A program made the translations under genes and the position numbers. The notes under the pieces are model-generated. The model was given only the letters and a program-made list of their open reading frames with translations. It made no database searches and had not been told where the DNA came from. This document shows, piece after piece, positions 2,868-24,184 of a stretch of DNA of 48,476 bases. The stretch covers positions 1 through 48,476 of the forward strand of contig JAUSLQ010000189.1 of NCBI GenBank assembly GCA_030645675.1, in the 5' to 3' direction. Source of the stretch: Actinomycetota bacterium (lineage in GTDB: Bacteria; Actinomycetota; Acidimicrobiia; Acidimicrobiales; Ilumatobacteraceae). Positions within the stretch are counted from its first letter, which is position 1, and each line of letters opens with the position of its first letter.

Positions 2868-3380
2868 GTGACCACGATGACGGCGCAGGAGTTCGACGAC
2901 CTGTTCCGGGCGCAGTACCCACGACTGGTCGCACTCGGTGCGGCCATGACCGGAAGCACGGAGATCGCTCGCGAACTCGCCCAGGAGACGATGCTGCGCG
3001 CTCACGCCAGATGGCACGACCTGGCCGGTTTCGATCAGCCGGAAGCATGGCTGCGCAGGGTGATGACGAACCTGCTGGTCGACGAGCACCGCACACGCAC
3101 CGCCGAGCGGGCGGCGTTCGGCCGGGTCGCGCTGCCGGCGCCGGTCTCGTCGACCACGCCCGCCGACTCTGCGGATCTCATCGCTTGGCGGGAGATGATC
3201 GCTCCGCTCCCTGCACGTCAACGGGCAATCATCGCTCTGCACTATGGCGACGACTGCTCGGTGGACGACATCGCCCGCATGTTGGCGATCTCCACCGGCA
3301 CGGTGAAATCGGCGCTCTTCAAGGCCCGCCAGCGCCTGCACAGCTCGATCGATCACGCCCGACAGGAGGACCACCAATGA
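2868..3380 (+). CDS. ECF sigma factor, sigma-E (SigE/SACE) family
   Basis: This 170-residue ECF sigma factor has the usual two domains. Region 2 (about residues 7-75) includes ARELAQETMLRAHARW and ends in WLRRVMTNLLVDEHRTR. Region 4 (about residues 110-160) includes LPARQRAIIALHYGDDCSVD and ARMLAISTGTVKSALFKARQ. The start is GTG 2868, with an in-frame ATG at 2877 as alternative; no good ribosome site precedes either. Its stop overlaps the start of a membrane protein (ATGA at 3377-3380), the arrangement of a sigma factor with its own anti-sigma or sensor partner. Confidence 0.92.
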   Translation: MTTMTAQEFDDLFRAQYPRLVALGAAMTGSTEIARELAQETMLRAHARWHDLAGFDQPEAWLRRVMTNLLVDEHRTRTAERAAFGRVALPAPVSSTTPADSADLIAWREMIAPLPARQRAIIALHYGDDCSVDDIARMLAISTGTVKSALFKARQRLHSSIDHARQEDHQ

Positions 3381-15285: not shown

Positions 15286-16836
15286 GTGGAAGGCGCCTTG
15301 GGCGTCCGGCCAGGAGCGCTGGTGCTGGTCACGGGGGCCAGCGGCTACATCGGCGGTCGATTGGTGACGGTGCTGCTCGAGCGCGGCTACCGAGTGCGGT
15401 GCTTGGTCCGCACCCCTGCAAAGGTGCTCTCTGCGCCGTGGCGCCCATCGGTCGAGATCGTGCACGGCGATGTCGGCGGCGACCTGAGCACGGCCATGGC
15501 AGGCGTGGAGGCGGCGTTCTATCTGGTGCACTCGATCGGCTCATCGGCCGAATGGGCCGAGCACGACCGTGCAGTTGCCGAGAACTTCCGGCACGCGGCC
15601 GAGGAGGCGCGGGTTCGCCGCATCGTCTACTTGGGCGGGCTCGGCGACCATTCGTCGGGTGAGCTCAGCGAACACTTGGCGAGCCGTCAGGAGGTCGGGG
15701 CCGAGCTCGCCAAGGGTTCGGTGCCGGTGGTCGAGCTCCGAGCCGCAGTCGTCATCGGGTCGGGCTCGGCGAGCTTCGAGATGCTGCGATACCTCGTGGA
15801 AGTCCTTCCGGCGATGGTCACGCCGCGCTGGGTCGACACGAAGTGCCAGCCGGTCGCCGTGCGCGACGTCCTGCACTTCCTCGTCGAGTCGTTGACCGCA
15901 GATGTCACTCACCGAGTGCTCGACGTGGGCGGGCCCGAGGTCCTGACGTATCGCGAGATGATGGCTCGGTATGCGGAGGTCGCCGGTCTGCGACGCCGGG
16001 TCGTCGTACCGGTGCCGTTCCTCACGCCTGGCCTGTCGTCGCGATGGATCGGCCTTGTCACGCCGATCCCACCGATGCTCGCTCGGCCGCTGATCCAGAG
16101 CCTCGTGAACGATGTGGTCGTCACTGGCGATGCTGCGGTCGACGCGATGCCGATCGACCAGCTCAGCTATCGCAAAGCGGTGGAACTGGCTCTGGGCCAT
16201 TCGATCAGTGGCGACGTGCCGACGAGTTGGGCGCACGCCGAGCTGGGCGGGCGCCCACCTGCCGAGCCGCAGCCCACCGACCCCGCCTGGTCCGGAGGCA
16301 CGGTCAACCTCGATCGGCGCGAGCGGCACGTCGCAGCGCTGCCGGACGAGCTGTTCCAGGTGCTCTGCTCCATCGGCGGCCGGCACGGCTGGTATGCAGG
16401 CGACTGGTTGTGGAGCCTGCGCGGCGTGCTCGACTCGCTGGTCGGCGGGGTCGGCATGCGACGAGGACGCCTTCATCCGCGTCAGTTGTCCGTCGGTGAT
16501 CCAGTCGACTTCTGGCGCGTCGAGTCCATCGCCCCCGACAGCCTGCTGCGTTTGCGCGCCGAGATGCGCCTTCCCGGAGACGCCTGGCTGCAATGGCAGA
16601 TAGAACCCGACGGCGCCGGTGCAACCATCACCCAGACGGCACGATTCCACCCGCGCGGGCTCCTCGGTCGCCTGTACTGGATCGCGGTCGCGCCCTTCCA
16701 CCGATTGATCTTCCCAGGGCTCCTTGCTGGTATCTGTGCCGATGCCGAGCGGCTGCACGCCTTCGTCGAGCCCGGTCACGCTCATTGCTGTGCAGCTGAC
16801 GAGCATGGGCGGGGACCGTCGTGGAGGAACGAGTAG
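15286..16836 (+). CDS. SDR/NmrA-like NAD(P)-binding protein with C-terminal DUF2867 domain
   Basis: This protein of about 516 residues has an atypical extended-SDR domain with the dinucleotide motif VTGASGYIGGRL and later VRDVLHFLVE. A C-terminal domain follows (about residues 360-510) with WYAGDWLWSLRG and GDPVDFWRVE, the DUF2867 pattern. Such fusions are common in actinobacteria; the substrate is unknown. The start is uncertain. GTG 15286 has a GAGG ribosome site and gives the expected short lead before the Rossmann motif, while GTG 15193 and ATG 15136 are in frame upstream and would add a Pro-Asn repeat tail. It overlaps the next gene by 55 bp, tail to tail. Confidence 0.85.
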   Translation: MEGALGVRPGALVLVTGASGYIGGRLVTVLLERGYRVRCLVRTPAKVLSAPWRPSVEIVHGDVGGDLSTAMAGVEAAFYLVHSIGSSAEWAEHDRAVAENFRHAAEEARVRRIVYLGGLGDHSSGELSEHLASRQEVGAELAKGSVPVVELRAAVVIGSGSASFEMLRYLVEVLPAMVTPRWVDTKCQPVAVRDVLHFLVESLTADVTHRVLDVGGPEVLTYREMMARYAEVAGLRRRVVVPVPFLTPGLSSRWIGLVTPIPPMLARPLIQSLVNDVVVTGDAAVDAMPIDQLSYRKAVELALGHSISGDVPTSWAHAELGGRPPAEPQPTDPAWSGGTVNLDRRERHVAALPDELFQVLCSIGGRHGWYAGDWLWSLRGVLDSLVGGVGMRRGRLHPRQLSVGDPVDFWRVESIAPDSLLRLRAEMRLPGDAWLQWQIEPDGAGATITQTARFHPRGLLGRLYWIAVAPFHRLIFPGLLAGICADAERLHAFVEPGHAHCCAADEHGRGPSWRNE

Positions 16837-18254
16837 TCCTCGAGGACCTGACACGCATGCCGTGCCTGTTCGAAGATGTCCCCGAGCGAAGCCCTGGTCG
16901 TCGCGTCGGCCATCAGCTCGTCGAAGTCGGTCCCGTCGGCTTCGGCGACCGCTGCGAGGAGGTCCTCCTTGCTGGCGACGAACTGGGTGAGGAGCTTGAC
17001 GTAGTCGGCATGTGCCTCGCCCAGCGAGGGCGGGGGCTCGAGACGCTCGAGGTCCGCGACCAGCGCAGCGATGGCCGCGAAGACCTCGGCGACGAAGGCG
17101 GCGGCCACGGCATGCGGGTCGCCTTCGGCTCGTGAGACGGTGTCGTAGGCGTGAGCGAGCGTGGCGTTGGAGCGGGAGTCGATGCCTGCCAAGGTCACCA
17201 TGTAGTCCAGTTCAGCCGGGGTGAGCGGCACGACGTCCGGCAAGGTGCCACCGTTGAGCATGCGGAGGAACTCCTGTGCTGCGGCGTCGGCGTCGGCGTT
17301 GACAGCGACTGCCACGGCGACTCCGTCGGGGTCGCGCACGATGGCACCGTTGTCGTCGATCCTGACCGTCATCGTCTGCGAGATGACGAGATCCGGGTTG
17401 ACGGCGGTCATGGCGGCGAGTTCGTCCCAGAGGTAGAAGCCGGCGAGAGTCGGGCGGGAGGTGGCCATCTGGTGCACGGTTCGCGCTGCCGGTCCATCGA
17501 GCGTGGCCAGTCGGCGCAGGAGGCGTTCGGTCCACGGGAGGTGGTTCGTGGCGTCGAGCGGTACGAAGGTCACCGGTACGCCGGATGCGAGCACACGGCG
17601 GGCGGACTCGGGGTCGATGTAGATGTTCCACTCCGCGGCGGGTGATGCCTCGACGTTGCCGGGAACGGTGACCGCGCCGCCCATGATCACGATCCTCTCG
17701 ATCTGGCCGGCGAGCTCGGGATGCGCGGCCAGGACCACACCGAGGTTGGTCAACGGGCCGACCGTAACCAGGGTGATCGGGGTCGTCGCCGCGACGAGTG
17801 TGTCGGTGAGGAGCTGCTCGGCGTCACGGACCGGTTCGGGCTCGACCGCGGGCAGCATCTCGGTACCCCAATCGTTGACCTCTGAGCGCCACTCCTCGGG
17901 CCAGTCACGATCACCGATCAGCGGGGTGTTCCGCCCGCAACCAACCGGCACGTCAATGCGGTCGGCGACCGCGAGCAGCGCCCGGGTGGTACGCGTTCCT
18001 GGTTCACAGTCCGCTTCGCCGGTGCCGGGGAGGGTGACGGCGAGCAGGTCGACCGCCGGGTTGGACGCCAGGTACAGCAATGCACCGGCGTCGGAGAGGG
18101 TCGGGCTGTAGTCGAGCAGCACCCGCAACCGCTTCGGCGAGGCGGGATCCACCGTGTCGCCGTTGCTCGCACAGCCCACGATCGCCGGGCTGAGCAGCGA
18201 ACTGGCAACAACGAGGGACCATGCCCGGGTGACGATCCCTCTGGTGATGCTCAT
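16782..18254 (-). CDS. Nucleoside-hydrolase-like lipoprotein with helical C-terminal extension
   Basis: This 490-residue exported protein has a lipobox IVGC with Cys28. It has the inosine-uridine nucleoside hydrolase fold: LTLVTVGPLTNLGVVLAAHP, IERIVIMGGAVTVPGN and EWNIYIDPESARRVL are clear family motifs. The normally invariant N-terminal DxDxGxDD calcium cluster is replaced by LLDYSPTLSDAGALL, so several acidic ligands are missing. A helical extension (about residues 370-490) follows the catalytic domain. GTG 18233 is an alternative start behind AGAGGG. An ECF-type promoter motif ends six bases before the ATG, suggesting a leaderless transcript under the neighbouring sigma factor. Confidence 0.85.
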   Translation of the reverse strand: MSITRGIVTRAWSLVVASSLLSPAIVGCASNGDTVDPASPKRLRVLLDYSPTLSDAGALLYLASNPAVDLLAVTLPGTGEADCEPGTRTTRALLAVADRIDVPVGCGRNTPLIGDRDWPEEWRSEVNDWGTEMLPAVEPEPVRDAEQLLTDTLVAATTPITLVTVGPLTNLGVVLAAHPELAGQIERIVIMGGAVTVPGNVEASPAAEWNIYIDPESARRVLASGVPVTFVPLDATNHLPWTERLLRRLATLDGPAARTVHQMATSRPTLAGFYLWDELAAMTAVNPDLVISQTMTVRIDDNGAIVRDPDGVAVAVAVNADADAAAQEFLRMLNGGTLPDVVPLTPAELDYMVTLAGIDSRSNATLAHAYDTVSRAEGDPHAVAAAFVAEVFAAIAALVADLERLEPPPSLGEAHADYVKLLTQFVASKEDLLAAVAEADGTDFDELMADATTRASLGDIFEQARHACQVLEDYSFLHDGPRPCSSAAQQ

Positions 18255-18259
18255 CGCCT

Positions 18260-18291
18260 GACAGACGAATGACGACGTCTGTCAGGTGACG
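18260..18291 (-). promoter_or_regulatory. ECF promoter motif (third copy) before the nucleoside-hydrolase-like gene
   Basis: On the minus strand CGTCACCTG (18291-18283), 14 bp, then TCGTCTGTC (18268-18260). The second box is identical to those before sodC and the sigma gene, the first matches 7 of 9, and the spacing is the same. The predicted start is near 18254. Confidence 0.6.
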
Positions 18292-18352
18292 TAGCTGATC
18301 GAGTCGTCGCGCGACCGACGCACCGGTTCGCCCGCGAGCGAGAGTCGCGTGG

Positions 18353-19069
18353 CTACGACGCTGGGTCCGCTGGGAGTGCGCCGGGCGCAGGTTCGATTCG
18401 CAGGATCCACGTTCCCGGGCCGAGGGGCGGCACCGACATCGACGGTGGCATGCCCGCTGCGGGTGCGACACCCGACTCGTCGAGCCGCTTGTTGCTGGAG
18501 AGCAGGCGGCCGATGACCGGCAACGCGATGACGTTCGCTGCGTGCAGGACTCCCATGATCAACAAGATGCCGCCGATGCGGGCCGCCTCGTGCTGGAGCT
18601 GCTCGCCGGTCGATCTGCGCCAACTCGCGTGTTCGACGAAGGTGACGGTGAACAGCACGAACGCTGCGAAGATCAGGTAGTACGCGACATCGGTGAGCAC
18701 GAGGTAGCTCTTGCCGGTGCGCGGGTTGGCGCGGAACACGTCGGCGGCGTACGAGCGACCGAAGCGTTTGATGAACGGGCCGAGCCCGATGGCGAGCGCG
18801 ACGAGCACGATGTTGGTGATCAGTTCGATGACCCACCACGGCATGACGAACCTCCTGTTGTCGAAATCGGATAGAGCGAGCGCGAGCAATGCGTTGGCGG
18901 CGACGAAGGCGAGAATCCACCGGGCGAGGCGCCATCGGAATCGGCGTCGGGCCTGTTGGTCGTCGAGGCTTCGGGTCACCCGGGCGAACAGGTCGGGGTT
19001 CTCCGACACGGATGTGCGAGCGTCGGCGAACGCGGCGACGAGCAGCTGTTCGACGTCGGTCGTGTTCAC
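18353..19069 (-). CDS. Four-helix membrane protein, putative partner of the ECF sigma factor
   Basis: This 238-residue protein starts at GTG 19069, overlapping the stop of the upstream sigma gene (GTGA). A charged cytoplasmic N-terminus (about residues 1-50, with DARTSVSENPDLFARVTRSL) precedes four hydrophobic helices (about 52-70, 80-103, 125-145 and 168-195) and a Pro-rich C-terminal tail. Coupled membrane proteins downstream of sigma-E-family ECF factors often act as anti-sigma factors, and I infer that role from position and the N-terminal domain. There is no zinc motif and no known catalytic domain. Confidence 0.7.
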   Translation of the reverse strand: MNTTDVEQLLVAAFADARTSVSENPDLFARVTRSLDDQQARRRFRWRLARWILAFVAANALLALALSDFDNRRFVMPWWVIELITNIVLVALAIGLGPFIKRFGRSYAADVFRANPRTGKSYLVLTDVAYYLIFAAFVLFTVTFVEHASWRRSTGEQLQHEAARIGGILLIMGVLHAANVIALPVIGRLLSSNKRLDESGVAPAAGMPPSMSVPPLGPGTWILRIEPAPGALPADPAS

Positions 19070-19656
19070 GGCTCGGCCAACGACCGGTCGAGCGCAGCCA
19101 TCGCGCGTTGCAGGTGGGTCTTCACCGAGTTCGCCGACAGCCCGAGCGTCGCCGCGATCCGATCGATCGGATACTCCTCGAAGTAGCGCAACGTCACGCA
19201 ATCGCGTTGACGGCCAGGAAGCCGTCGCACCGCGTCGAGGACTCGCGCGTGCTCTTCGGAGCGCACGAGCTGATCGGCCGTGTCGTCACCCACGTCGACA
19301 TCGCGGCCCGTGGTCGCATGATGGCGAAGTGAGACAAGACCCCGTCGGTTGTGGTCTCGAGCGAGGTTCAACACGATCGACCGCAGATACGCGGGCGCTC
19401 TTTCGATCGCGTCGATCCGTCCGGCGTGGCGGGCGAGTCGGAGGAACGCCTCTTGCACGATGTCCTCGGCGGCGTCGCGGTCGTCGACGAACAAGCGGGC
19501 CAAGCGCACCAACGAGCGACCCTCGGTCTCGAACATCCGGACGACGAGTTCCTCGGCCTCGACGGTGATCGTCTCACCCTGCAGCCTTGCCGCGGCGATC
19601 GCCATCAAGAACGGCGGCAGGCTCCGTTCCCGGTGTGGGACGACGACCGTGTGCAC
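19066..19656 (-). CDS. ECF-type RNA polymerase sigma factor
   Basis: This 196-residue ECF sigma factor has region 2 at about residues 43-108, including DDRDAAEDIVQEAFLRLARH and YLRSIVLNLARDHNRR. Region 4 is at about 142-192, including LPGRQRDCVTLRYFEEYPID and IAATLGLSANSVKTHLQRAM. The GTG at 19656 gives the longest form; ATG 19605 is an alternative. It is coupled to a four-helix membrane protein. A promoter-like motif identical to the one before the divergent sodC lies about 145 bp upstream, suggesting autoregulation and control of sodC by this factor. Confidence 0.92.
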   Translation of the reverse strand: MHTVVVPHRERSLPPFLMAIAAARLQGETITVEAEELVVRMFETEGRSLVRLARLFVDDRDAAEDIVQEAFLRLARHAGRIDAIERAPAYLRSIVLNLARDHNRRGLVSLRHHATTGRDVDVGDDTADQLVRSEEHARVLDAVRRLPGRQRDCVTLRYFEEYPIDRIAATLGLSANSVKTHLQRAMAALDRSLAEP

Positions 19657-19800
19657 TTTCGCTCAGCCGTTCACGGTCGGAGGGCGACCTGCTCGCCCAG
19701 GGTTGCACATCCCACCAGAGTGCCAGGCGCGTGAACGTCGAGATGACGAGCACGTCGCCAGAGACCTCGTCGACCCCGCGCTGGACTCTTCGCCATGCCA

Positions 19801-19832
19801 GACAGACGAACGACACCACCAGCCGGGTGACA
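19801..19832 (-). promoter_or_regulatory. ECF promoter motif (copy 1) for the sigma gene
   Basis: On the minus strand TGTCACCCG (19832-19824), 14 bp, then TCGTCTGTC (19809-19801). Both boxes and the spacing are identical to the plus-strand copy before sodC. The predicted transcript has a leader of about 140 nt before the GTG at 19656. Confidence 0.65.
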
Positions 19833-19853
19833 CGAGCACATTCCTTTCTCGCC

Positions 19854-19885
19854 TGTCACCCGCCCGCCGCTCGGCCTCGTCTGTC
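19854..19885 (+). promoter_or_regulatory. ECF promoter motif (copy 2) for sodC
   Basis: TGTCACCCG (19854-19862), 14 bp, then TCGTCTGTC (19877-19885). The predicted transcript begins near 19890, about 24 bases before the sodC ATG, with AAGGAGG between them. Confidence 0.7.
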
Positions 19886-19913: not shown

Positions 19914-20516
19914 ATGAAACACCGTCTGATCGCCGTCGCTGCCGGCGCGGCGCTCGTCGCCGGGCTCGTCAGCGCGAGTACCGCCGATGCTCGAACCCGC
20001 TCGGCCAGAACCACCCTTGCGACCGCCGACGGCACCCGGATCGGTTCCGTCGAGTTCAGGACCGACGATGGGCACACCGAGGTACGGGTCCGTCTCACGG
20101 GCGCGCCTGGCATCGATGCGTTCCACGGGTTCCACATCCACGCCAACGACGTCACCGCCAACGGTGACGGCTGCGTCGCCGATCCCACCGCCGCACCGTC
20201 AACCTGGTTCGTGTCAGCGGACGGTCACTACAACCCGACTGGGCAGGCCCACTCCCATCATGTCGGTGACATGCCTGTCGTGTACGTGAACGCCGACGGC
20301 AGCGTCGAGACCAGGTTCCGGATCGACAAGATCAACCTCGCCGAACTGAACGGCAAGGTGGTCATCTTGCACGCCGGTGCCGACAACTACGCCAACATCC
20401 CGCTCGGCACCGGCCCGACCCAGTACACGGCGAACTCCACCGACGCGACGAGCGCAACGGCCAAGACCGGCAACGCCGGTGACCGAGTCGCCTGCGGCGT
20501 CATCACGTCACGATGA
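19914..20516 (+). CDS. sodC: Secreted Cu-Zn superoxide dismutase family protein
   Basis: This 200-residue protein has a signal peptide (about residues 1-27). Its Cu-Zn SOD core converts superoxide to oxygen and hydrogen peroxide outside the membrane. Metal ligands are recognisable in GFHIHAND, DGHYNPTG and HSHHVGDMP, and a Cys pair (DGCVAD and RVACGV) can form the structural disulfide. The ATG at 19914 follows AAGGAGG. The late arginine of classical enzymes (GGxRxACG) is represented by GDRVACG. It diverges from the ECF sigma gene and shares its promoter motif, so it is probably in the same extracytoplasmic stress regulon. Confidence 0.92.
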   Translation: MKHRLIAVAAGAALVAGLVSASTADARTRSARTTLATADGTRIGSVEFRTDDGHTEVRVRLTGAPGIDAFHGFHIHANDVTANGDGCVADPTAAPSTWFVSADGHYNPTGQAHSHHVGDMPVVYVNADGSVETRFRIDKINLAELNGKVVILHAGADNYANIPLGTGPTQYTANSTDATSATAKTGNAGDRVACGVITSR

Positions 20517-21999: not shown

Positions 22000-23079
22000 T
22001 CAGCAGATGCGGGGGAGCTGCTCGCCCAGTGGGCGATCCACGATCCTCGTCGAGCCGAAACCGGTACGCGCCACGACGACGCCGGCGTGGCCCTCGACGA
22101 CGCGACCGATGACAGTGGATCTGCTGCCGACATCGGTGGCGGCCATCGCGGCCAGTACCTGATCGGCGTGGTCGGGCGCGACGAAGGCGACGAGTTTGCC
22201 TTCGTTTGCCACGTGAATCGGGTCCAGGCCCAGGAAACCGCACGCCGCGCGGACAGCTTCGGGAACCGGCAGTGACCGCTCCTCGAACTCGATGCCCACC
22301 TGAGCGGTCTCGGCGATCTCGCACAGAGAAGCGGCGAGTCCGCCGCGGGTGGGGTCGCGCAACACGTGGATGTCGGCGCACGCGGCGAGCATCGCTGCCA
22401 CCAGATGGTTGAGCGGCGCCGTGTCGGAGCGCAGCTCGGTGCCGAACTCCAGGCCTTCGCGGAGACTGAGCACGGCGATTCCGTGGAGGCCGATCTCACC
22501 GGAGACGATCACCACGTCGCCGGGCCGTGCGCGCTCGGGCCGAATGTCGACGCCGTCGGGCAGCAGGCCGATGCCGGCGGTGTTGATGTACACGCCGTCG
22601 CCGTGGCCGCGCTCGACCACCTTCGTATCGCCGGTGACCAGCTGCACGCCGGCGTTCAGCGCGGCAACACCCATCGACGTGGCGATGCGCCCCAGCACGT
22701 CCATCTCCAGGCCCTCTTCGAGCACGAACCCGGTCGACAACGCGAGCGGCTGCGCCCCGCGCATCGCCAGATCGTTGACCGTTCCGTAGACGGCGAGCTC
22801 ACCGATGTTGCCACCGGGGAAGAACAGCGGCCGCACGACGTACGTATCGGTGGAGAACGCCAACCGGACACCGTTGCCCAGCTCCAGCACGTGGGCGTCG
22901 GTGGGCGTAGCCGTGCGAGCAGCCTCTCCGAAGGCCGGCAGGAACAGGTGTTGCACCAACTCGGCCGACAGCTGCCCCCCGCCACCATGCCCCATCACGA
23001 TGTGGTCCTGATGGCGCAAAGGGAGTGGGCACGACCAGCCCTCGAGGTCGATCGCCGGAGTGGCGTCAGCCTCAGCCAC
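22000..23079 (-). CDS. hypE: Hydrogenase maturation protein HypE (carbamoyl dehydratase)
   Basis: This 359-residue AIR-synthase-like protein ends in PRIC. HypF carbamoylates the C-terminal cysteine, and HypE dehydrates it with ATP to the thiocyanate that supplies the CN ligands of [NiFe]-hydrogenase. Family motifs include [14 protein letters not shown] near the N-terminus, [20 protein letters not shown] and [20 protein letters not shown] 23079 is chosen because it overlaps the hypD stop by 8 bp; an upstream in-frame start at 23142 would lie well inside hypD. It is last in the hypFCDE block. Confidence 0.95.
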
Positions 23080-24184
23080 GACGCACTGCCGCGGGTGGGT
23101 CGAGACGGCGGTACTGGAAGTAGGCGGCGCACGCGCCCTCACTGGAAACCATCGTGGCGCCCATCGGCGTGCGCGGGGTGCACTCCTTGCCGAAGCACTC
23201 GCACTGGTCGGGCTTGAGCACTCCCTGCAGCACGTCGCCGGCCCGGCAGCGCACGGGCTCGCTCACCGACAGCTCACCGACGTCGAAGCGGCGCTCAGCA
23301 TCGAAGGCGGCAAACTCCGACTTCAGCCGCCAACCGCTCATGGGGATCATCCCTATGCCGCGCCACTGGCGGTCGCACGTCTCGAAGACCCGCGCCAGCA
23401 TCTCCTGCGCCGGCTGGTTGCCCTCGGCGCGCACGGCGCGCGGGTAGGCATTCTCCACCTCGGAGCTGCCGGCCTCCAGTTGCAGCACGCACCGGCGGAT
23501 GCCGTCGAGCACGTCGAGAGGCTCGAAGCCGGTGACCACGATCGGCACCGCGTACCGCTCTGCCAAGGGTTCGTACTGCCGCGTGCCCATCACGGTGCAC
23601 ACGTGGCCGGCTGCGAGGAACCCCTGCACCCGCGAGGTCGGGGAAGTCATCAGTGCCTCGATCGCCGGCGGCACGAGCACATGGCTGACGAGCATCGAGA
23701 AGTTCTGCAGGCCCCGCTCGCGCGCCTGGAACACTGCCATCGCGTTGGCCGGGGCGGTGGTCTCGAAACCGACACCGAAAAAGACGACCTCCTTGTCGGG
23801 GTGCTCCTGCGCGAGGTTCACGGCATCGAGCGGTGAGTAGACGACGCGCACGTCGCCACCCTTGGCCTTCACCGAGAACAGGTCGTCGCGGCTACCGGGA
23901 ACGCGCAGCATGTCGCCGAACGAGGTGAACAACACGTTCGGTCGCGCAGCAATGGCCAGCGCCCGGTCGATCATCTCCAGCGGTGTGACGCACACCGGGC
24001 AACCAGGCCCGTGGATCAGCTCCACTCGATCGGTGAGCAACTGGTCGATGCCGTTGCGGATGATGGAGTGCGTCTGGCCGCCGCAGACCTCCATGATCGC
24101 CCACGACTTCGTCGCTGCCGCGTCGATCTGTTCGAAGAGCGAGCGAGCGAGCGCGGGATCGTTGAACTCGTCGAGGTACTTCAC
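23072..24184 (-). CDS. hypD: Hydrogenase maturation protein HypD
   Basis: This 370-residue iron-sulfur protein forms, with HypC, the scaffold on which Fe(CN)2CO is assembled. Conserved motifs include [33 protein letters not shown] and [10 protein letters not shown], which together provide the cluster and active-site cysteines. The family length is normal. The ATG overlaps the hypC stop by 4 bp, and the stop overlaps hypE. All key residues appear intact. Confidence 0.96.

Follow-up and report, generated by a model that had tools for sequence, protein, structure and literature searches.

Promoters of the extracytoplasmic function (ECF) sigma factors of group ECF41 are described as TGTCACA-n16(+/-1)-CGTC, some ECF41 candidate promoters read TGTCACC, and CGTC is a usual -10 element of ECF promoters (PMC3426412). 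Class II anti-sigma factors, such as CnrY, have a short cytoplasmic N-terminus made of two helices (PMC7406223). The locus described here belongs to an Actinomycetota bacterium of the family Ilumatobacteraceae (assembly GCA_030645675.1, contig JAUSLQ010000189.1, positions 1 to 48,476), and the whole stretch of 48,476 nucleotides is called the window. It holds an ECF sigma gene, an overlapping gene for a four-transmembrane (4-TM) membrane protein, and three copies of a two-part motif, placed before the sigma gene, before sodC, which encodes a Cu/Zn superoxide dismutase (SOD), and before a lipoprotein gene. It is highly probable, as judged from sequence comparison, that this sigma factor is autoregulated, is held by the 4-TM protein acting as an anti-sigma factor, and drives sodC, the lipoprotein gene, an unlinked gene for a multi-TM protein and probably a cytochrome P450 gene.

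Motif copies and sites upstream of sigma genes

The sigma gene (19066..19656, minus strand) encodes a protein of 196 amino acids that matches Pfam Sigma70_r2 and r4_2 and has no region 3, which is the sigma2/sigma4 composition of ECF factors. Perfect copies of TGTCACCCG-N14-TCGTCTGTC are found at 19801-19832 on the minus strand and at 19854-19885 on the plus strand, back to back and 21 bp apart. The third copy, at 18260-18291 on the minus strand, has two mismatches, both within the first 9-mer (7/9), and an intact second 9-mer (9/9). The exact search agrees in positions, strands and match counts with an earlier sequence-only reading of this DNA, which had also considered the repetition hard to explain by chance: the window has these three matches and no other at up to three mismatches, against a mean of 0.24 and a maximum of 2 in 100 dinucleotide shuffles. 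The minus-strand perfect copy is predicted to be the promoter of the sigma/membrane-protein operon, with TGTCACCCG as -35 element, a spacer of 17 bp between TGTCACC and CGTCTG, and CGTCTGTC as -10 element; the plus-strand copy would be the promoter of sodC, probably together with the downstream P450 gene. The third copy is the predicted promoter of the lipoprotein gene, whose ATG begins at the sixth base past the motif (18254), 7 nt past CGTCTG, and the lipoprotein transcript is predicted to be leaderless. No motif copy is present at a further sigma-like gene at 2868-3377, found by homology, and an Rfam scan of the window and 11 other loci gave no match at the gathering score.

The genome-wide search for the motif core, proposed as a check in the sequence-only reading and run as TGTCACC-N17-CGTCTG, found just three exact sites in the 4,092,240 bases of the host genome. 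Two are the perfect window copies, and the third, on contig C185 (locus L001, 1501-1530), ends 40 bp upstream of a gene for a multi-TM protein of 215 amino acids, which is unlinked to the window and was found through the motif alone. With an 18-bp spacer two exact genomic matches were obtained, one overlapping a predicted coding sequence and one upstream of an open reading frame that looks GNAT-like by eye, and both are unproven as promoters. Three sites with one mismatch and spacer 17 (L004, L006 and L007) lie in or beside genes that have no credible start downstream, and they are not included among the targets. At up to two mismatches the genome has 161 matches against 94 for a reversed-pattern control, so isolated weak matches carry little meaning.

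Related sigma loci were collected by searches with the membrane protein, which found it in nine of 61 genomes at E 0.001, seven of them strong (own genome included), and 18 times at E 1e-10 in 397 genomes of the order, and by a scan of named genome contigs, which gave 14 loci. After duplicates were dropped the order set contains 24 sigma loci including the window, with start codons chosen by alignment. A comparison of upstream regions in relatives had also been proposed from the sequence, and it recovers the site. From 300 bp before the assigned start to 30 bp into the gene, with a spacer of 16-18, 11 of the 24 loci have an exact site, 17 have one with at most one mismatch and 19 with at most two, the shuffle expectations being 0.00, 0.04 and 0.64. 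Four of the five other loci (L095, L099, L103 and L107) have a site with no or one mismatch farther upstream within the same gene row, and in the fifth (L097) the contig stops about 750 bp upstream. In L107 the row reads site, SOD-like gene, ATP-binding cassette (ABC) ATPase, ABC permease, sigma factor and membrane protein; the site precedes a secreted-looking protein and ABC genes in L095, a lipoprotein-like gene in L099, and a stand-alone 3-TM gene in L103. Gene order and strand suggest that these rows are single transcripts.

Hold-out loci were taken from searches at E 1e-10 of 396 genomes of the phylum (11 with a match) and 395 genomes of the class (37 with a match). Of 43 loci of best matches, seven were left out (the window, G004 and G348, which were in use before, and four second hits of represented genomes), and the remaining 36 played no part in the motif definition. 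The stretch scanned was the sigma strand up to 1200 bp before the sigma match (shorter in short loci). There, 22 of the 36 loci have an exact site, with a spacer of 17 or 18, and 27 a site within one mismatch; scrambled motifs gave means of 0.00 and 0.09 and maxima of 0 and 3. When paired 5-mers were counted freely in the 24 loci of the order, the top pairs were parts of the motif, any one pair occurring in at most 8 loci, and in the hold-out loci the motif came second (18/36), behind coding sequence of the 3-TM protein (20/36). A second conserved 5-mer pattern upstream in the hold-out set was rejected, being coding sequence of the stand-alone 3-TM protein. Chance resemblance could call upon the 161 genomic matches at up to two mismatches; set against the window shuffles, the 19 of 24 sigma loci, the hold-out set and the partner-linked motif of the multi-TM gene described below, its probability is negligible.

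The consensus was derived from 42 listed sites taken from the order set, genome G006 and the C185 gene. Its -35 element is TGTCACCCG, with frequencies of 0.69 for the initial T, 0.93-1.00 for GTCACCC and 0.79 for the final G, and its -10 element is CGTCTGT, with 1.00 for CGTC (42/42, partly by selection), 0.71 for T, 0.98 for G and 0.95 for the last T. The spacer is 17 in 30 sites and 18 in 12. Because matching produced the site list, the core values are inflated. The search string did not include the C and G that follow TGTCACC or the T that follows CGTCTG, and the 34 exact hold-out matches share these flanking preferences (C 0.94, G 0.71 and T 0.97).

Start codons often follow the -10 hexamer closely. 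An ATG lies 7 or 8 nt past it in 10 of 20 listed site-bearing genes, and the gap of the lipoprotein ATG is 7 nt in all three species. Among the 24 sigma leaders eight were inspected, and all eight have a start codon 5-7 nt past the hexamer: in six an ATG starts a frame 5 to 60 codons long, which closes 4-32 nt upstream of sigma, and in two a GTG is in frame with sigma. The 34 exact hold-out matches have an ATG at 5 nt in eight cases and at 8 nt in five, and none within 12 nt in 18. Such start codons fit a transcript start near that position and favour a promoter over an operator. The leader of the window sigma gene contains a possible leaderless frame of 41 codons (19671-19796, minus strand), which starts 6 nt past the -10 hexamer and ends 14 nt before sigma. 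Dissimilar peptides occupy the same position in five relatives, the short leader peptides in general being dissimilar among relatives, and translational coupling is a possible role of this frame.

If the motif were a two-part operator for a DNA-binding regulator, the back-to-back sigma and sodC copies, 21 bp apart, would suit it, as would a perfect 8-bp inverted repeat, GACAGACG-N8-CGTCTGTC, at 18260-18283 within the lipoprotein promoter. That repeat, however, is lost in two lipoprotein orthologues (left arm with 6 and 8 mismatches) and is not present at the sigma, sodC and C185 sites (4, 3 and 5 mismatches). The motif is also directional, the start codon often stands at a short fixed distance from it, and CGTC is a usual ECF -10 element (PMC3426412), all of which make the operator a very improbable explanation.

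Genes behind the motif

The multi-TM gene of contig C185 links the motif to the sigma locus. Its orthologue lies near the sigma gene in G011, G027, G028, G002 and G040, with the motif at the gene start (0 to 2 mismatches). Among the 11 genomes with a multi-TM orthologue, the motif (at most two mismatches, within 400 bp) is found in all six that have the membrane-protein partner and in none of the five without it, even at up to three mismatches (Fisher p 0.002). The exact N17 site extended to CGTCTGT occurs in 6 of the 61 genomes, namely 4 of the 7 with the partner and 2 of the 54 without (Fisher p 0.0009), the latter being G006 and G043. By eye, homologues of the C185 protein also stand behind sites in L137, L138, L155, L161 and L176.

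These counts bear on a different ECF sigma factor, for instance a member of ECF41, as the reader of the sites, with the local sigma gene merely one of its targets. The ECF41 sequence TGTCACA, with TGTCACC in some candidates, and its spacer of 16 +/- 1, which overlaps 17, would allow this (PMC3426412). Yet the motif of the multi-TM gene tracks the membrane partner of this sigma factor (6/6 against 0/5), the site is found upstream of sigma genes in the order, in the class and beyond, and the extra conserved bases (CCG and TGT) and the spacer of 18 (12/42) are not in the ECF41 consensus given there. Another sigma factor is accordingly quite improbable as the reader, and we infer that the sites are read by the sigma factor encoded beside them.

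SodC (19914..20516, plus strand) matches Pfam PF00080 at 2.1e-24, its Sod_Cu domain scores 86.9 bits against a cut-off of 28.9, and its top PDB matches are Cu/Zn SODs; by inspection of its N-terminus it appears to be exported. The motif is kept upstream of sodC orthologues in G006 and G028, and in G040 a single exact site precedes a pair formed by a multi-TM gene and sodC, with a 4-bp overlap between the two genes. In the eight near genomes three of the four Sod_Cu genes have the motif directly upstream and the fourth, that of G040, is reached through the gene overlap. In L086 (3096-4295, minus strand) the multi-TM protein and SodC form one unbroken open reading frame of 400 amino acids, which suggests a membrane-anchored SOD. 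The P450 gene (20580..21962, plus strand; PF00067) follows sodC after a gap of 63 bp in which no terminator-like site was found, and in G002 its orthologue follows a gene that carries an exact copy of the motif; the P450 gene is probably co-transcribed with sodC.

The lipoprotein gene (16782..18254, minus strand) belongs by its match to PF01156 (7.5e-52) to the nucleoside-hydrolase family named in the sequence-only reading, and its lipobox was recognised by eye. The motif of that family is altered: the protein has D-Y-S-P-T-L-S-D where two aligned solved enzymes have D-C-D-P-G-H-D-D, so that D-x-D-P-x-x-D-D is not intact, and both orthologues found (L018 and L019) likewise have D-Y-S-P-T-L-S-D. 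With Ser at two of the four motif Asp positions the lipoprotein may therefore not be a nucleosidase. The comparison supports sodC and the lipoprotein gene as predicted targets, and the motif is kept before the orthologues of both.

In relatives, the motif precedes further genes. A secreted-looking SOD-like protein, with no Pfam match at E 1, stands behind the motif beside sigma in L093, L094, L106 and L107, and similar proteins were seen by eye behind divergent sites in L156, L157, L158 and L160. A search with its profile retrieves Cu/Zn SODs from the PDB, with E-values of 8.4e-5 and 9.3e-4. The L094 model (from the L092 copy; predicted local distance difference test, pLDDT, 73; three sequences) has eight Foldseek matches at E <= 0.001, and each of the 50 listed PDB matches is either an SOD or the copper chaperone's SOD domain, with TM-scores of about 0.5, which indicates an SOD fold. 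In the alignment the copper-side histidines are kept and zinc ligands seem missing. Profile-profile comparison with SodC gave a probability of just 22.9%, and a profile search of the eight near genomes gave no match, which shows little.

Another gene seen repeatedly in the neighbourhood of sigma encodes a small membrane protein (L018 7311-7730, L022 4474-4893, L023 12039-12488, and L139 after 285); the L018 copy has a sub-threshold DUF4345 match, the others were grouped with it by similarity or by eye, and the L022 gene starts 7 nt past an exact motif copy. ABC ATPase and permease-like genes stand behind a motif copy beside sigma in L101 (8467-10268), L107 (1480-3197) and L095 (8667-10573), assigned by scan in L101 and L095 and by eye in L107; these three loci come from other families of bacteria. 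The gene after the membrane protein in L094 (5450-6619, minus strand) encodes an N-terminally hydrophobic protein with a Pfam match to the Neocarzinostatin family, and similarly placed genes occur in L093, L095, L097, L099 and L101. Of the small regulon first proposed, the core is supported and the size is not: the predicted regulon also takes in the unlinked multi-TM gene and probably the P450 gene, while relatives add genes of DUF4345-like and SOD-like proteins and of ABC transporters. Adjoining the regulon in the window (22000-24184, minus strand) are hypE, a hydrogenase maturation gene identified by NCBIfam scan, and a neighbour that we take to be hypD.

The membrane protein partner and the proposed circuit

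The 4-TM protein, a putative anti-sigma factor, is encoded at 18353..19069 on the minus strand; the start of its gene and the sigma stop share 4 bp (GTGA). The coupling of sigma to a four-helix membrane protein, already seen in the window, extends to relatives: the overlap is 4 bp in 21 of 24 loci and 10 bp in L097 and L107, and the genes are apart in L104. The protein has four hydrophobic segments after two predicted N-terminal helices (residues 3-20 and 25-66, the second running into TM1; pLDDT of the block 66-92). The N-terminal D26-L27-F28-x-R30 is invariant in 24 sequences, as are E82, D127, R164 and H176 in the remainder, and the 3-TM module has a strongly conserved loop of cytoplasmic type around KRFGRSYAADVFRANPRTGKS. 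Against Pfam and NCBIfam no family was matched at E 0.001, nor was a recognised ASDI (class I anti-sigma) domain, and at E 1 there are just Pfam families below their cut-offs, none of them anti-sigma. A stand-alone relative of the last three TM segments, without the N-terminus, is found beside sigma in 21 of the 36 hold-out loci and in L103; six aligned relatives of this kind share 49-62% identity with the window protein and retain E82, D127, R164 and H176.

The absence of a recognised anti-sigma domain and the stand-alone 3-TM relatives would also suit a membrane protein that is a co-regulated target or an activator. Against that role speak the 4-bp overlap with sigma in 21 of 24 loci, with 10 bp in two more, and the two-helix N-terminus with its invariant D26-L27-F28-x-R30, which has the layout described for class II anti-sigma factors (PMC7406223); a target or activator is the less likely role, though it keeps some weight. 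We infer that the membrane protein inhibits sigma, the N-terminus being the probable inhibitory part and the 3-TM module the probable sensor.

In the proposed circuit, the three window copies would be promoters read by the ECF sigma factor encoded between them. Sigma would transcribe its own operon, including the 4-TM protein, as well as sodC (probably with the P450 gene), the lipoprotein gene and the unlinked multi-TM gene. While the cell rests, sigma would be held by the membrane protein through the short cytoplasmic N-terminus with its two helices. A signal arising within the membrane or at it would free sigma, and positive autoregulation would then amplify the response. Extracytoplasmic oxidative stress is the leading candidate signal because of the SOD targets. 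A wider proposal is that the protein represents a new type of membrane-embedded ECF sensor, in which the 3-TM module detects, within the membrane, a redox or ligand state. With a first TM segment and a two-helix cytoplasmic arm attached, the module would make an anti-sigma factor, both forms standing side by side with sigma in many loci. Across Acidimicrobiia and in some other Actinomycetota, the regulon under control of the circuit would be partly leaderless and consist of membrane proteins and exported proteins, often of SOD type. Taken as a whole, this proposal is tentative and more doubtful than probable.

Several observations weigh against the autoregulated circuit. Genome G043 has one exact copy and no membrane-protein match, and G006 has sodC with an exact motif and neither a sigma gene (E 1e-15) nor a close membrane-protein orthologue in its assembly; because a second exact copy in G006 (L077 6618-6647) lies 54 bp from a contig end, an assembly gap is possible, although unproven. 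Sod_Cu is found in just three of the seven near genomes with the partner (and in G006), so SOD is a recurrent and not a universal target; the multi-TM protein, in six of the seven, is the more constant one. Nine hold-out loci (L139, L145, L150, L154, L156, L161, L162, L165 and L177) have no site with at most one mismatch on the sigma strand in the stretch scanned, some of them having a two-mismatch, a more distant or an opposite-strand site. Relatives are not independent samples, L157 and L158 carrying identical sites, and confidence in the model of the membrane protein is low (pLDDT 65), a fold search with it giving no PDB match below E 0.001.

Sequence comparison shows the sites, their conservation and placement, their link to the presence of the partner, and start codons close to where transcripts should begin. 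An observation in a single draft genome has become a predicted regulon with one consensus, recovered in hold-out genomes. It proposes a function, open to testing, for a family of membrane proteins that has no Pfam or NCBIfam model, and it connects extracytoplasmic SOD with an ECF sigma factor in bacteria whose genetics is little developed. Since start codons close to the predicted +1 narrow the expected 5' ends to 1-2 bases, the whole model could be tested by RNA-seq.

Comparison with described sigma/anti-sigma systems

Titles and the beginnings of abstracts name neither this motif nor this sigma/membrane-protein pair, a coverage that excludes the main ECF classification and does not establish absence from print; the sigma factor may be of an already numbered, uncharacterised ECF group. 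SigE-fam_strep (TIGR02983) is the best NCBIfam model for the window sigma protein, and each of the 24 sigma proteins matches it at E 1e-20; the window score (115.2 bits) is under the cut-off of 141.55. For the window SodC the best NCBIfam model is the mycobacterial type, SodCMycob, also below cut-off, and a different regulation is proposed here.

The -35 element, which the sequence-only reading did not recognise, has a precedent in the TGTCACA and TGTCACC of ECF41 (PMC3426412). The two systems share TGTCAC at -35, CGTC at -10 and a site upstream of sigma and partner genes, and the spacer of 17 (30/42) is within the published 16 +/- 1. They differ in the seventh base, a C here, in the spacer of 18 (12/42) and in the TGT that follows CGTC. 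The window sigma protein also lacks the C-terminal SnoaL-like extension of ECF41, since region 4 ends at residue 189, the protein ends at 196 and there is no SnoaL match, and its partner is a membrane protein where that of ECF41 is a COE protein.

Canonical ECF/anti-sigma pairs, as presented in PMC8103513, resemble this locus in the sigma2-sigma4 composition, the coupled membrane partner, the predicted autoregulation and the CGT in the -10 element. They differ in the -35 element, where the AAC of the prototype promoter is replaced here by a consensus of TGTCACCC, and in the partner, which here has no recognised anti-sigma domain or long extracytoplasmic stretch. The two predicted N-terminal helices of the membrane protein recall class II anti-sigma factors such as CnrY, the layout alone being compared (PMC7406223); four TM segments and the stand-alone 3-TM relative beside sigma in many loci set it apart from them. 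Beside these systems, the motif/sigma circuit appears to be a new variation, small and conserved, on the known ECF sigma/anti-sigma scheme, and it suggests that a TGTCAC-type -35 element is in use outside ECF41.

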